The notes under the pieces were generated by a model. That model was not told the origin of the DNA, did no database searches, and saw nothing but the letters and a program-made list of their open reading frames with translations. Of a stretch of 64,000 nt of DNA, positions 57,206-63,504 are shown one piece after another (the first letter of the stretch is position 1; each line of letters begins with the position of its first letter). A program made the position numbers and the translations under genes. The DNA is from Caldicellulosiruptor saccharolyticus DSM 8903 (lineage in GTDB: Bacteria; Bacillota; Thermoanaerobacteria; Caldicellulosiruptorales; Caldicellulosiruptoraceae). Where the stretch lies: the NCBI RefSeq assembly GCF_000016545.1, contig NC_009437.1:2444501-2508500 (forward strand), read 5' to 3'.

Positions 57206-57249
57206 ATTGTTTTTAATTTGTTAATTAAGAAATGGTGGTGAAGAAAAAA

Positions 57250-57981
57250 ATGTCAAAGGAAAACCCTTTAAAATTTCTGGGAATCGGAAGTGCTTTTAAT
57301 CCTAATTATAACAATACCTCTGCTTACTTTGAATTGGAAGATAATCTTTTTTTAATTGACTGTGGTGGAGGTATATTTAACTCCCTTTTGAGTTTGAAAC
57401 TACTTGAAAAATATCTACATTTAAATGTTTTAATAACTCATACACACCCTGACCATATTGCAAGTTTAGGTCAATTAATCTTGTATTGTTATTATCAACT
57501 AAACAAGAAAATAACTCTTATCTTCCCTCAATCTGAAATAATATTAAATTTACTTGACTATATGGGTATCAGAAATGACATATACATTTTGAAAACCCCT
57601 CAGGACTTTGTTAACTATCTCAGTAAACTTACGGTAATATCTTTAGAACAAGTTCATGTAAATGAATTGCCTTGTTTTGGATATCTAATTTACTTGAATA
57701 ACGTAACATTTTATTACAGTGGGGACTCAAAATCAATTCCTCTTTATATCCTAACCAAATTTTTGGAAGGCGAAATAGATTTTTTATTCCAAGATACTTG
57801 TTCAGAAAATCATAACCATCATCCCCATCTTTCCATAAAGGAACTCTCAGAACAAATACCACCCTCAAAAAGAAAACAGGTTTATTGCATGCATATTGAT
57901 GAGAAGTTTGATGTAAATTTAGCTAAAAATTTAGGTTTTAATATACCTCAAGAAATTATAGTTGAGAGGGATGCAAAATGA
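57250..57981 (+). CDS. Metallo-beta-lactamase-fold hydrolase, RNase Z/phosphodiesterase-like
   Basis: 243 residues. The metal motifs of a working MBL enzyme are all present: HTHPDH (64-69), VHVNELPCFGY (third His), YYSGDS (bridging Asp) and a late CMHID. The GIGSAFNPNYNNTSAYFE start and FGYLIYLNNVTFYYSGDS resemble RNase Z, ElaC-like and cyclic-nucleotide phosphodiesterase members, not beta-lactamases. Substrate unknown; a nucleotide or phosphodiester is likely by family. ATG at 57250 is preferred (GGTGGTGA upstream). It is sandwiched between two GAF proteins, and its stop overlaps the next start by 4 bp (ATGA). Confidence 0.78.
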   Translation: MSKENPLKFLGIGSAFNPNYNNTSAYFELEDNLFLIDCGGGIFNSLLSLKLLEKYLHLNVLITHTHPDHIASLGQLILYCYYQLNKKITLIFPQSEIILNLLDYMGIRNDIYILKTPQDFVNYLSKLTVISLEQVHVNELPCFGYLIYLNNVTFYYSGDSKSIPLYILTKFLEGEIDFLFQDTCSENHNHHPHLSIKELSEQIPPSKRKQVYCMHIDEKFDVNLAKNLGFNIPQEIIVERDAK

Positions 57982-59183
57982 TTGAATATGATAATCCCCA
58001 AGATTTAAAAAGATTAATCAAAAGACTCAATAAAATTGGAATTACAATTTCACGGGAGAAAAATGTCGATACCATTTTAGAAATGATCTTAAATGAAAGC
58101 ATTGACATCACAAATAGTGATGGTGGTACCCTCTATATTGTAAAAGAATTCGAAGGACAAAAATATTTAGTCATCACACTTGCCAAAAACTATTCAGTTG
58201 ATTTCAATTACATTGGTTATAAAATACCTATAGATAATCAAAGCATTGTCGGATATGTTGCCCAAAATGGCATTCCTGTTACAATTAACAACATTCAAAA
58301 TATCCAAAATTCTCATATGCAGCAGTTTAAACTTTTCGACCAAGCTTTACATTATAAAACCCTAAATCTTATGGCAATACCTATGACTGATTATCAAGGC
58401 AATGTGATTGGTGTTTTGCAGATAATAAACAAAAAGAAAGACAAGTCCATTAAGCTAACAGAAGACAATATCTGCCAAAATATTGTTGACTTTACAAAAG
58501 AAGATGAAGAAATTATTTTGTCACTTGCATCTCAAGCGTCTTTATTAATTGAACGAATTCATCTTTACCAAAGGATAGAAAAAAATATTGCAAACACCCG
58601 TTATGCTCTAATCAGTTTATTTAATTCTATGAAACAAGTGATTGCAAACTTGAGTGAAGATATTTTAATTGAACAAGAAGAGTTTAAGAAATATGCATCT
58701 TTGGACGATCTGACAGGTCTGTTTACGCGAAATGAAGGAATGATTTATTTAGAAAAGCAGATACAACTCTCCAAAATGAATGAAACGCACTTTGTTGTTT
58801 GCTTTATTGACGTCGATGGATTAAAACAAGTAAATGACACATTTGGCCACCAAATAGGTGATGAACTTTTAAAAAGCTTTGCTCAAATTTTAAAAGAAAG
58901 TATTAGAAGTTACGATATAGCGTTTAGATATGGGGGAGATGAGTTTGTGTTGATACTTTATAAAGCAACAATAAGAGAAGCCAATATTGTTCTTGCAAGA
59001 ATTCAAAATAAAATTGATGAGTTTAACACAAAAATCCAAAAGCCATATAAGATTCAAATAAGCTATGGGTTTGCTGAATATTCCCCAACTTCTAATTTGA
59101 GTATTGAAGACTTGATTAAAATTGCTGATGAGAATATGTACAAGGTCAAGAAAGAAAAGAAAAAAAGTCGACCCTCATATTAA
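57978..59183 (+). CDS. GAF-GGDEF diguanylate cyclase
   Basis: 401 residues: GAF domain (about 25-200), a helical linker, and a GGDEF domain from about residue 235 (LDDLTGLFTRNEGMIYLEKQI). The metal/nucleotide text FIDVDGLKQVNDTFGHQIGDELL and RYGGDEFVLIL (GGDEF at 319-323) are intact. RSYD at 310-313 is a canonical inhibitory I-site five residues before GGDEF, so product feedback by c-di-GMP is expected. No membrane segment, so it acts in the cytoplasm on a small-molecule or redox cue sensed by GAF. Translation is coupled to the MBL gene. Its last codons double as the terminator of the opposite gene. Confidence 0.92.
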   Translation: MIEYDNPQDLKRLIKRLNKIGITISREKNVDTILEMILNESIDITNSDGGTLYIVKEFEGQKYLVITLAKNYSVDFNYIGYKIPIDNQSIVGYVAQNGIPVTINNIQNIQNSHMQQFKLFDQALHYKTLNLMAIPMTDYQGNVIGVLQIINKKKDKSIKLTEDNICQNIVDFTKEDEEIILSLASQASLLIERIHLYQRIEKNIANTRYALISLFNSMKQVIANLSEDILIEQEEFKKYASLDDLTGLFTRNEGMIYLEKQIQLSKMNETHFVVCFIDVDGLKQVNDTFGHQIGDELLKSFAQILKESIRSYDIAFRYGGDEFVLILYKATIREANIVLARIQNKIDEFNTKIQKPYKIQISYGFAEYSPTSNLSIEDLIKIADENMYKVKKEKKKSRPSY

Positions 59184-59245: not shown

Positions 59246-59665
59246 TTAGAATAACCATGGAAATCTTGAAAAATGATCTGTTTTTAGTTGTTGTTTCTTA
59301 AGTGTAACGTAAATATTCTTCCCCGCAGACCTATCATAGATGTACCCTTCATATCCTTCACATCTTAGGTGCACATCTTTTTTGAACTTAGCATCTGGTG
59401 AAAATTCAATGTACACAGTTCCATTTTCAGCATATATCTGTGCATAAAAGGTAATTGCATCTATTCCATCAGGTAGCGAGTCTTTCTTAAAATCAATTTC
59501 TACAAAGCCTACCTGGAATTTTCCTCCTTCATTTGTTACAGTAAAACTACCACTAAATTGAATAGGAGTTTCATCTTGTGCAAAAGCAATGCTACTCAAC
59601 CCCAACGATAAAACAAATACCAAAAGTATAGCAATTGACCATTTCTTCAAAACATGAAGCTTCAT
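59246..59665 (-). CDS. Small secreted protein of unknown function under riboswitch control
   Basis: I do not recognise this 139-residue protein. A clear signal peptide (KKWSIAILLVFVLSLGLSS...AFAQD, cleavage near residue 29-30) precedes a roughly 110-residue beta-rich domain (IQFSGSFTVTNEGGKFQVGF; AITFYAQIYAENGTVYIEFS), with a single Cys and many aromatic residues at the C-terminus. The shape suggests an Ig-like or jelly-roll module that binds sugar or protein. AAAGGGGGTG lies before the ATG. A c-di-GMP-I riboswitch, a terminator and a small hairpin occupy its leader, and its own terminator follows. Conserved function is unknown. Confidence 0.75.
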   Translation of the reverse strand: MKLHVLKKWSIAILLVFVLSLGLSSIAFAQDETPIQFSGSFTVTNEGGKFQVGFVEIDFKKDSLPDGIDAITFYAQIYAENGTVYIEFSPDAKFKKDVHLRCEGYEGYIYDRSAGKNIYVTLKKQQLKTDHFSRFPWLF

Positions 59666-59689
59666 AACTTTTTACACCCCCTTTAAGTT

Positions 59690-59709
59690 GAGCAAGCAAA
59701 GCCTTGCTC
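59690..59709 (-). promoter_or_regulatory. Small hairpin directly before the ribosome-binding site of the secreted-protein gene
   Basis: GAGCAAG pairs with CTTGCTC (59690-59696 with 59703-59709), six-base loop, a few bases upstream of the AAAGGGGGTG RBS. It may protect or tune the leader mRNA. Confidence 0.5.
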
Positions 59710-59717
59710 ATTAATAT

Positions 59718-59751
59718 ATCAAAAGGCACCTGACATTTTAGCCAGGTGCCT
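59718..59751 (-). terminator. Terminator of the c-di-GMP riboswitch expression platform
   Basis: AGGCACCTG pairs with CAGGTGCCT (59724-59732 with 59743-59751), followed on the minus strand by TTTTGAT. The 5' arm of the hairpin (GGCACCUGGC in the RNA) can instead pair with GCCAGGCUGCC at the 3' side of the aptamer. Confidence 0.7.
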
Positions 59752-59794
59752 CTCTGCCAAAGGTAAATACTCCTTTTCTCACTTTACCATTGAC

Positions 59795-59900
59795 ATATGT
59801 TTCGGCAGCCTGGCGATCATAGGAAAAGGTAAAAACCCTTTTCCGACAGACCCATGGCTTTGCGCCCCTGCCTTTCGACAGGTTTGCCTTTATCGACATA
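59795..59900 (-). ncRNA. Cyclic-di-GMP-I (GEMM) riboswitch
   Basis: The RNA reads GGCAAACC, a 6-bp stem capped by a GAAA tetraloop (CCTGTC-GAAA-GGCAGG), then GGCGCAAAGCC and GGGTCTG, a second stem (GGAAAAGG/CCTTTTCC), and ATCGCCAGGCTGCCG. These match the conserved core of class I c-di-GMP riboswitches. The ends carry the palindromic ACATATGT, forming an outer stem. It lies about 130 nt before the secreted-protein start on the same strand. Ligand binding would hold GCCAGGCUGCC in the aptamer and free the downstream terminator, so c-di-GMP should switch the gene off; this direction is an inference from complementarity. Confidence 0.93.
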
Positions 59901-59933: not shown

Positions 59934-60042
59934 ATTAGCATTCTTTGTGTATAATTTTTATGTGGTTTTCTGAATTATATTATCGCATAAATTTTTAAAT
60001 TTTCAATAGCTTTTTAAAAAAATTTTTGGGTTGTGAAAAACT

Positions 60043-63000
60043 ATGGTTTGTTTCAACTGTGGCAATAAAATTCAATCTCCTAATGCTGAAAAATGTATCT
60101 TTTGTGGAATGAAATTTAAGGGTGTGTGTCCATCTTGCAATTCATTATTACCTACCTACATTAATTTCTGCCCTAATTGTGGGGAATTTGTAAGACAAGG
60201 TGAAACTAATCAACAATCTGTTGACGAACTAAAAAAGGTAGCTGTGCTATTTGCAGATATATCAGGGTTTACTAAGCTTTCCGAAAAAATAAGCCCTGAT
60301 GAGGTTAATAATATAATCAATGAATTTTTTGAATATATTTTAACACCTGTTTACTACTATGAAGGTACCATAGATAAATTCATTGGAGATTGTGTTATGA
60401 TACTATTTGGTGCAAAAAACTCTCACTTGGATGACCCAAAGCGTGCTGTGTTGTGTGCTTTTGAAATGTTAAAACTCTGTAACGAGTTTTCAGTACAAAA
60501 AAGTTTAAAAATATCAATGAGTATCGGTATAAATTATGGTATAGTTGCAATTGGCAAAGTCGGAGGATATTATGAAAAGGATTATACTGTTATTGGGGAC
60601 GTTGTTAATATTGCTCAAAGATTACAAGCAGCAGCACCTGAGAATACTATTTATGTATCAGAGAGTATTTATAGGGAGACTTTTGATTTATTCCTATATT
60701 CAGAGGCAAAAGAAATTTATGTCAAAAATAAAAGCAATCCCATAAGGTGTTATATACCTTTAGAAATTATCAATGAAGCTACAACATTTGATGTAATTTC
60801 TCGTATCCAGGATAGCTATTTATCAAAACTATTTAATATAATCGCATCAAAAGATACAAATAGCGTTCTTTTACTGGGGCCAAACGGTGTTGGAAAAACT
60901 TCTCTTTTAGAAAAATTAACTAATCATTTAGTTGCAAACAATATAAAAACGTATTATATTAGATGTAGTTTTAATAATTATTCGCGTCCTTACTTGTTAA
61001 TTTCGCAAATAATATGTAAAGTATTAAATGTAAGTGTAGACGATGTGCAAACCATAAAGCAACATCGATTAATCTCTTTTCTTGACTTTTTATTTAAAGA
61101 TGACTTAGAAAAAAAAGAAATCTGTTTCAAATTTCTTTCTATCATTCTGCAATTAGATATCGAGGATGATTTTAGAAATCTTGTTTCCTCCATGACCCAA
61201 GAAGATTTGGAATTTGAAATTCGGCAAAATGTACTTCTATTTTTTGATGCTTTTTTGAGCTCAAATTTTTCTATTTTTTTAATAGATGACATCCATTATG
61301 CTGACATTGAATCAATTCAAATCCTGGAATATTTAAAGACAAATTTGTATTGTGATAAAGTAATCTTTATTATAACTTCAGAAAATGAAAGTATCCACCT
61401 TAATGCCGAAAAAACCATTTATGTGCACAAACTGTCACATCAGGAAACAGAGGAATTTCTGAAATCTTTTTTTAATGTTAACACTGTTGATGAAAAACTT
61501 ATTCAGCTAATGGTGGACATATCAGAAGGAAAAATTTCTTATCTTAAAGAGGTTTGTAGATGGCTTTATTTGAATCATCAGTTGTGCATTCAGAACAATA
61601 AGCTGTTTCTTCAAAACACTAATATAAATGCTTCAGAAATATTTTATAAAATTGTTGAACACAGACTTTCTCAACTCGATAAGGAATTAATACAATTTTT
61701 GAAAATAGCTGCTGTTTTTGGACAAAGATTCAATTTACGTATAGTATTAAATGTTCTAAAACCTTCAAAATCTGAAAATGATATCATCTTAACTCTCTCA
61801 AAAAGTAATTTCATTAAATTTGTTGACATAACTTATCAATCTTCAACAGCAGACAAAATCTTCGAATTTGCAAATAATATTATTTTTGAAACAGTCCTGA
61901 GGTCAATACCAAAAAGTACTAAAATAAGTCTTCATCTTAAAATTGCCAAATCTATTGAAAAACTATTCAGAGAAAATATTAGTTATTATTACGAGCTTTT
62001 GATTTATCATTACCGTGAAGCGAACGATATTATAAATTCTTCCAAATATTGTATATTGCTTGCAAATTATTATAAAAAGCAGCTTTTGTACAAGTACGCA
62101 GTAAAATACTTTAAAATTGCAATTGAAATGTTAGAAAATTACAACCAACAAAAAAACAATCTATATACAAGAGCACTTGAAGAATTATCAAGTTTAGAAA
62201 AACAAATGGGTAACTATGTTGAAGCTCTTAAGTACTTAAATATCTTAGATAGTGTAGCAGATGCAGAAAAAAGTCTATTTATAAAATGCGAAATATGTGA
62301 ATGTCTTATCCTTACTGCTGACTTTGCTAAAGCGAAGGAAATACTCATAGGGCTTGAAAAAAATATTGACAGGAATAGTACCTTATATTCAAAATTAGTC
62401 TACCTCAAGAGTCTATTTCAATGTTATACTGGGGCTTCAGACATTAGCCAAATTTTGGAAGAGGCAGAAACTATAATAATGCAAGATAATGAGATCGAGA
62501 ATCTTGTAAAAATCTTTAATGTAGTTGCATATACATTTTATAGAAACTATGGAGATATTAATAAGGCAATAAATTACTTACAAAAAGCTAAATCTGCCGC
62601 AATTAAAACTAATAATATTGGTTTACGTGTTAAACTCACCAGTAATCTTGGTGTTCTTTATTTTCAAACTGGTCAAATTAACAATGCAATACAAAATTTA
62701 ACATCAGCCTTAGAAGAAAGTAAAAAAATCTCTGATAGACACTCACAAATTGGTATTTTAATAAGCTTAGGAATAATTCATGCTAAAAAAGGACTTCTTA
62801 AAAAAGCATACGAGTATCTAAATAAGGCTTATGAAAATGCTAAAAAGTGGAACTTTTTGTATGAAGAGTGTCTTTGTTTACTAAACATTGGTGAAATCTA
62901 CATTGAAAAAGGTTTATTAATACATAGCTATGAATTGTTTTTAGCCTCACTAAATATCAGCGAAACAAAAATGTTTACTGCCGAAAAAGCTTTGAGTTTT

Positions 63001-63504
63001 TTAAATCTCGCAAAAGTTTTGATCCTTATGAAAAATTGGCAAGCTGCTGACGAATTTCTTAACAAAGCAACAAGTTTTATTGAAAATTTAAAAGACATAG
63101 ATATATCTTATGAATATCATCTAACTAAGGCAGAGTTTTTTTTGTTGACGAACAATTTTTTGGATGCAGAGAGAGAAATTGATATTTCATTAAAGTTTGC
63201 AGAAAAAAACATATTCAGACAAATAGAATGTATAAGAAAGAAAGGGGAGATACTTTCTGCTGCTGAAAAGTACAGTGAAGCAATAGAATGCTTCAAAAAT
63301 GCAATAAAACTTAGTGAAACAAGCGGTTCTGCCTTAGAACTTGCAAAGTGCTATTTTCTCTTAGCAAAAACTTATCTAAAAACTTCGCAAAAAGACCAAG
63401 CAAAGTATTATTTTGAAATGTCAGAAAAATGGAGCAAATTAATTGATGATGAGTGCAGTATCAAGACTGAAATAGCTTCATTTAAAAAGTGTTTGATAAG
63501 TTAA
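60043..63504 (+). CDS. Zinc-ribbon / class III adenylate cyclase / AAA ATPase / TPR protein
   Basis: 1153 residues, one continuous frame. Domains: double zinc ribbon (C3, C6, C18, C21, C29, C32, C43, C46); class III cyclase (about 62-235) with metal Asp72 (FADISGFT) and Asp116 (IGDCVMILFG), Lys112 plus Thr182 (YTVIGD, class IIIb adenylate type) and the transition-state Asn189/Arg193. Next is a P-loop AAA/STAND-like ATPase (Walker A GPNGVGKTS 279-287; Walker B FLIDDIHYAD about 409-418), a helical region, and about eight or more TPR units (about 680-1150). No membrane helix. It may make cAMP under control of an ATP-driven TPR sensor. RBS weak (GGGTTGTG), start set by the first zinc Cys. Confidence 0.88.
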   Translation: MVCFNCGNKIQSPNAEKCIFCGMKFKGVCPSCNSLLPTYINFCPNCGEFVRQGETNQQSVDELKKVAVLFADISGFTKLSEKISPDEVNNIINEFFEYILTPVYYYEGTIDKFIGDCVMILFGAKNSHLDDPKRAVLCAFEMLKLCNEFSVQKSLKISMSIGINYGIVAIGKVGGYYEKDYTVIGDVVNIAQRLQAAAPENTIYVSESIYRETFDLFLYSEAKEIYVKNKSNPIRCYIPLEIINEATTFDVISRIQDSYLSKLFNIIASKDTNSVLLLGPNGVGKTSLLEKLTNHLVANNIKTYYIRCSFNNYSRPYLLISQIICKVLNVSVDDVQTIKQHRLISFLDFLFKDDLEKKEICFKFLSIILQLDIEDDFRNLVSSMTQEDLEFEIRQNVLLFFDAFLSSNFSIFLIDDIHYADIESIQILEYLKTNLYCDKVIFIITSENESIHLNAEKTIYVHKLSHQETEEFLKSFFNVNTVDEKLIQLMVDISEGKISYLKEVCRWLYLNHQLCIQNNKLFLQNTNINASEIFYKIVEHRLSQLDKELIQFLKIAAVFGQRFNLRIVLNVLKPSKSENDIILTLSKSNFIKFVDITYQSSTADKIFEFANNIIFETVLRSIPKSTKISLHLKIAKSIEKLFRENISYYYELLIYHYREANDIINSSKYCILLANYYKKQLLYKYAVKYFKIAIEMLENYNQQKNNLYTRALEELSSLEKQMGNYVEALKYLNILDSVADAEKSLFIKCEICECLILTADFAKAKEILIGLEKNIDRNSTLYSKLVYLKSLFQCYTGASDISQILEEAETIIMQDNEIENLVKIFNVVAYTFYRNYGDINKAINYLQKAKSAAIKTNNIGLRVKLTSNLGVLYFQTGQINNAIQNLTSALEESKKISDRHSQIGILISLGIIHAKKGLLKKAYEYLNKAYENAKKWNFLYEECLCLLNIGEIYIEKGLLIHSYELFLASLNISETKMFTAEKALSFLNLAKVLILMKNWQAADEFLNKATSFIENLKDIDISYEYHLTKAEFFLLTNNFLDAEREIDISLKFAEKNIFRQIECIRKKGEILSAAEKYSEAIECFKNAIKLSETSGSALELAKCYFLLAKTYLKTSQKDQAKYYFEMSEKWSKLIDDECSIKTEIASFKKCLIS

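Follow-up and report, generated by a model that had tools for sequence, protein, structure and literature searches.

Does the leader of a small secreted-protein gene in Caldicellulosiruptor saccharolyticus, a heat-loving bacterium that degrades plants, act as a c-di-GMP switch, and in which direction? A preliminary description of the 64,000-nucleotide stretch analysed here (the window) had proposed a GEMM-I riboswitch that turns the gene off when c-di-GMP is bound. We examined the aptamer, the pairings available to the leader, the controlled gene and the conservation of each. The features of the leader are as follows.

59979–60006, minus strand: candidate promoter, TTGAAA-16-GATAAT, TG-extended (consensus scan, weak)
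59800–59897, minus strand: c-di-GMP-I aptamer (RF03167, 73.9 bits; RF01051, 77.8 bits)
59804–59814, minus strand: switching strand GCCAGGCUGCC, the 3′ strand of the aptamer or the 5′ strand of the antiterminator
59762–59788, minus strand: bridging hairpin with a 6-bp core, GGTAAA/TTTACC, the apical stem of the predicted antiterminator
59721–59754, minus strand: intrinsic terminator hairpin, GAGAGGCACCTGGC-TAAAAT-GTCAGGTGCCTTTT, whose 5′ arm (59741–59750) pairs with 59804–59814
59689–59710, minus strand: second leader hairpin, TGAGCAAG-GCTTTG-CTTGCTCA, ahead of the ribosome site
59246–59665, minus strand: controlled gene, encoding a 139-residue secreted protein with a signal peptide and one predicted ZU5-like β-sandwich

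The Leader Contains a Class I c-di-GMP Aptamer

When the motifs behind the GEMM-I assignment were re-read, GGCAAACC, the GAAA-capped P2, GCAAAGCC and GCCAGGCTGCC (59814–59804) were all found directly on the minus strand, and every coordinate was correct. The covariance search that had been proposed as a check gave a match as well. RF01051 (c-di-GMP-I) aligned over its full length with 77.8 bits against a gathering cut-off of 35. A cmscan of the window placed RF03167 (c-di-GMP-I-GGC), also at full length, at 59800–59897 on the minus strand (73.9 bits, E 1.2e-15), above the cut-off of 59. The element belongs to a well-known riboswitch class. The original class call stands, with the addition that the best label in Rfam is the -GGC subfamily and that the ligand-contact bases are canonical.

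In the numbering of Vc2 (PMC3764141; PMC4744006), the pocket bases are G20 (59888), A47 (59861) and C92 (59805), which, as read from the alignment, are the canonical ligand contacts of c-di-GMP-I. Because of this pocket, the expected ligand of the window aptamer is c-di-GMP, not a variant.

Aptamer and Predicted Antiterminator Share One Strand

The 5′ arm of the terminator (59750–59741) reads GGCACCTGGC, also written GGCACCUGGC. Its complementarity to the 3′ strand of the aptamer, GCCAGGCUGCC, was confirmed as 10 bp with one bulged C, as previously described. The duplex has an energy of −19.9 kcal/mol; shuffled arms averaged −9.1, and a single shuffle in 300 was equally good. The bridging hairpin (arms GGTAAA, 59788–59783, and TTTACC, 59767–59762) had been suggested to help the antiterminator form; it does fall inside the predicted antiterminator fold, and a counterpart of changed sequence is present in the seven orthologous leaders compared. 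The second leader hairpin likewise has a counterpart in these seven leaders, its sequence being quite different in L011, a more distant ortholog, and the ribosome site itself lies outside it. This comparison of hairpins covers seven of the eleven orthologs, and the remainder were read by eye. The U-tract after the terminator hairpin is short (CCTTTTGATATATT), and this hairpin went unreported in a simple scan for terminators that requires 5 T in 8. The promoter is a weak candidate, because the consensus scan found 3 sites where 2.8 were expected in shuffles.

Comparison across 15 genomes strengthened the original interpretation as a whole, including the exclusion between terminator and antiterminator, which also holds computationally. 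All 10 standard pairs of the antiterminator are present in 26 leaders from 12 congeneric genomes, and 9 of 10 are present in three more distant genomes, where it is weaker; the leaders are related sequences and these counts are not independent. Across the genus, the 5′ arm of the terminator varies at two places only (A/G and C/T). Both changes are of kinds that G-U wobble tolerates and leave pairing with the constant strand of the aptamer intact, and the other arm of the terminator compensates (A-T to G-C, C-G to T-A). L006, L025 and L026 retain TGGC even though it falls within the loop of the terminator and is dispensable for that hairpin. The retention of TGGC, together with the variation of the arm, provides comparative evidence for the antiterminator itself, beyond the terminator. 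Duplex energy, folding and comparison all indicate that the aptamer strand and the terminator arm are mutually exclusive.

Folding Predicts an OFF Switch

Twenty leaders were folded at 37 and 65 °C as truncated transcripts, cut just past the 5′ arm of the terminator. In every one (20/20), the antiterminator was favored over the P3-closed state of the aptamer, by 2.4–12.8 kcal/mol, and the predicted OFF direction holds computationally. When the full leader was folded, the two states were nearly isoenergetic (−76.3 versus −74.4 kcal/mol), in a model that leaves ligand energy and tertiary contacts outside. Because of this near balance, the direction rests on timing and on ligand energy.

We judge, with a probability of about 0.85, that this leader is a true riboswitch of the c-di-GMP-I class, predicted to act as a transcriptional OFF switch. 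The family match of the aptamer, its canonical pocket, the exclusive pairings with their conservation and the conserved tie to the gene are shown here; the identity of the ligand, the co-transcriptional outcome and the direction are parts that we infer. At low c-di-GMP, base pairing between the 3′ strand of the aptamer (59804–59814) and the terminator's 5′ arm (59741–59750) would form the antiterminator, in which the bridging hairpin would be stacked. The terminator would be blocked, transcription would read through and the secreted protein would be made. With c-di-GMP bound, the aptamer would retain its own 3′ strand and leave the 5′ arm free, so that the terminator could form and transcription would end ahead of the gene.

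The Probable Target Is a Small Exported Protein

The signal peptide of the 139-residue protein was read from the sequence by eye. Searches of Pfam and NCBIfam with the protein gave no match, a PDB sequence search gave nothing significant, and a pattern scan of the genome contigs with the alignment of the protein gave no relative. An AlphaFold2 model has a pLDDT of about 90 over the mature domain. The top structural matches in Foldseek were ZU5 domains (probability 1.00, E 9e-3, TM 0.49), and VIA returned a best ZU5 match with Z 8.3 over 87 residues (rmsd 2.6); the ten best-ranked matches were all ZU5. We treat this likeness, which comes from a predicted model, as a similarity in fold of borderline significance from which function is not transferable.

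Orthologs of the protein occur in 11 of the 12 genomes of the genus (with a frame break dividing the gene in G009), in a second genus belonging to the family (G318), in a further member of the class (G330, broken in a draft assembly) and in another class (G070, 48% identity). A c-di-GMP-I aptamer precedes the gene in each of these genomes. Because switch and protein stay together across several lineages, the c-di-GMP signal very probably does target this protein. The earlier proposal of a secreted target holds computationally, and to it can be added the predicted ZU5-like fold and the conserved locus. The protein, a small exported β-sandwich by prediction, probably has a cell-surface or extracellular role.

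The G006 species is without the secreted protein. In its genome, no gene is evident downstream, on the same strand, of a riboswitch with the same platform (L020/L047).

Two conserved neighboring genes lie on either side of the switch and the secreted-protein gene.

57978–59183, plus strand: GAF-GGDEF diguanylate cyclase, convergent neighbor (GGDEF PF00990, 1e-40; synteny)
60043–63504, plus strand: class III nucleotide cyclase-AAA-TPR protein, divergent neighbor (PF00211, 2.3e-27; synteny)

The locus has a conserved order in the genus: an SLH protein, a GAF protein, a metallo-hydrolase, the GAF-GGDEF cyclase, the riboswitch with the secreted gene, and the class III cyclase-AAA-TPR protein. This order is partly kept in other genera, and the GGDEF gene is missing from the locus of G005. 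The GAF-GGDEF cyclase is a likely source of the c-di-GMP ligand, which has been measured in C. saccharolyticus and is low in pure culture (PMC4342205). At 57232–57981, between two GAF proteins and near the class III cyclase, the window also encodes a metallo-β-lactamase-fold protein that weakly resembles the anti-Pycsar protein Apyc1, below the family cut-off; it is possibly a cyclic nucleotide phosphodiesterase.

Alternative Readings of the Leader

The aptamer could in principle bind 3′,3′-cGAMP or another variant cyclic dinucleotide, or some other ligand such as that of the -GGC subfamily, in place of c-di-GMP. That subfamily, reportedly defined by Weinberg in PNAS in 2017, takes the best E-value in Rfam, but it wins by E-value calibration only, and RF01051 has the higher bit score (77.8 versus 73.9). 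Its consensus carries a G for the intercalating A of J2/3 (CGCGAAGCC), whereas the window reads CGCAAAGCC in the cmscan alignment. A47 is kept in all 30 aptamers of the genus and also in L074, L084 and L085. The variant ligand implied by the label was rejected on the presence of this base. The mark of the cGAMP-type GEMM-Ib aptamers, A at position 20, is found in one distant ortholog, L084 (2010–2095; AATAGCAAA), which precedes the same secreted protein and may represent ligand drift. It is absent from the window aptamer, which has G at 59888, and the A20G change converts a cGAMP aptamer to c-di-GMP (PMC6456294). A GGDEF cyclase is supplied by the genome and by the neighbors of the gene. We consider a ligand other than c-di-GMP very unlikely.

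It is also improbable that the switch works in the opposite or in a mixed sense, with c-di-GMP raising expression through some other pairing or with the second leader hairpin giving translational control. ON switches do exist among c-di-GMP-I leaders, as in Bc1, where the T1 terminator unfolds with ligand (PMC11218506), the full-length fold is nearly balanced, and a conserved hairpin lies before the ribosome site. However, no alternative pairing was found by which the bound aptamer would free the gene, the shared strand belongs to the aptamer, and the ribosome site is outside the conserved hairpin. The leader might instead be a non-responsive remnant, or its hairpin might terminate too weakly to have any effect in vivo. 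The short U-tract would fit this, as would copy L020 in G006, with no obvious downstream gene, and the precedent of a locked leader: Bc1 of Bacillus thuringiensis shows that a c-di-GMP-I leader, even when it is conserved and has terminators, need not be responsive in vivo (PMC11218506). Yet both exclusive pairings and the link to the gene are conserved across at least three genera, and we think a remnant or an ineffective terminator very unlikely. A c-di-GMP-responsive OFF switch is the reading that we prefer.

Related Switches Precede Adhesin Genes

The genome of C. saccharolyticus has four c-di-GMP-I aptamers, and 30 matches were found in the 12 genomes of the genus. Across the genus, the same switch also occurs before genes for tapirins, which are cellulose adhesins, and about 540 nt upstream of celA. 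One copy in C. saccharolyticus itself (L010 2502–2591; G000:C1:1202001–1202090) shares the antiterminator design; it is flanked by two tapirin genes and serves as the leader of the second (NF051896, E 5.5e-270). Another (L010 6168–6325) is the riboswitch with terminator upstream of celA. A consensus-like promoter lies before this copy, and in several species it is followed by conserved non-coding TTCTGTAACGCTGAAAAAAGCTATCCCCTAACCCCCTC and then by a GGCTGCC hairpin. Riboswitch control of celA itself is not claimed, because of the distance and because published start sites in C. bescii are nearer the gene; in that map, the 5′ UTRs of carbohydrate operons do not exceed 329 nt (PMC8579813). A further copy (L009 7799–7898) precedes an HD-GYP-type gene (HD_5), followed by genes for CheA, CheW and chemoreceptors. 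This placement is apparently confined to the C. saccharolyticus genome. Positive feedback would result if a c-di-GMP phosphodiesterase were under an OFF switch.

Some copies differ in their platforms. L021 (G003:C1:1934001–1934090) resembles the window locus upstream and the celA-upstream copies in its expression platform, and is possibly a hybrid that arose by recombination between riboswitch copies. L028 and L035 are c-di-GMP-I leaders with no terminator downstream of the aptamer; near-palindromic segments, CTCCTTATATGGAG and CTCCATATAAGGAGG, overlap the ribosome site, which suggests translational control of another small exported protein.

As a rule, c-di-GMP promotes adhesion. We offer only tentatively, as a proposal more likely wrong than right, that the class I riboswitches of Caldicellulosiruptor and its relatives let c-di-GMP repress surface attachment, through the secreted ZU5-like protein, the tapirins and possibly the leader upstream of celA. 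If true, this would reverse the usual rule and bring c-di-GMP into the regulation of the region that holds the tapirin and glucan-degradation genes; in a regulon study, no dedicated transcription factor was found for the glucan degradation locus (PMC8579813). Our literature search found no paper naming both tapirin and riboswitch. The observations firmly connect c-di-GMP with an uncharacterized family of exported proteins, whose conserved locus also carries genes for a diguanylate cyclase and for a class III cyclase. They point to a c-di-GMP regulon that extends through this genus of industrially important thermophiles and takes in cellulose adhesins. What is added to the riboswitch itself is this link, across genera, to the exported protein and to a regulon containing adhesins.

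Comparison with Known Systems

The ZU5 domains of ZO-1, ankyrin and UNC5 resemble the predicted β-sandwich of the target at borderline significance, whereas the window protein is an exported bacterial protein of a single domain, with about 15–20% identity and no Pfam match. Bc1 of B. thuringiensis, like the window leader, joins a class I aptamer to intrinsic termination. Bc1 controls a chemoreceptor and carries two terminators, one of which (T1) unfolds upon ligand binding (PMC11218506), whereas the leader here has a single terminator, predicted to form with ligand, ahead of a secreted-protein gene.

Lineage-specific expression platforms are usual for c-di-GMP-I riboswitches. The window element resembles RF03167 in its best E-value and in scoring above the cut-off, but is without the G that replaces A47 in that subfamily. 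With RF01051 it shares the core sequence, the P1–P3 layout, the GAAA tetraloop and G20/A47/C92; the aptamer does not differ from that family, and only the expression platform is specific to the lineage.
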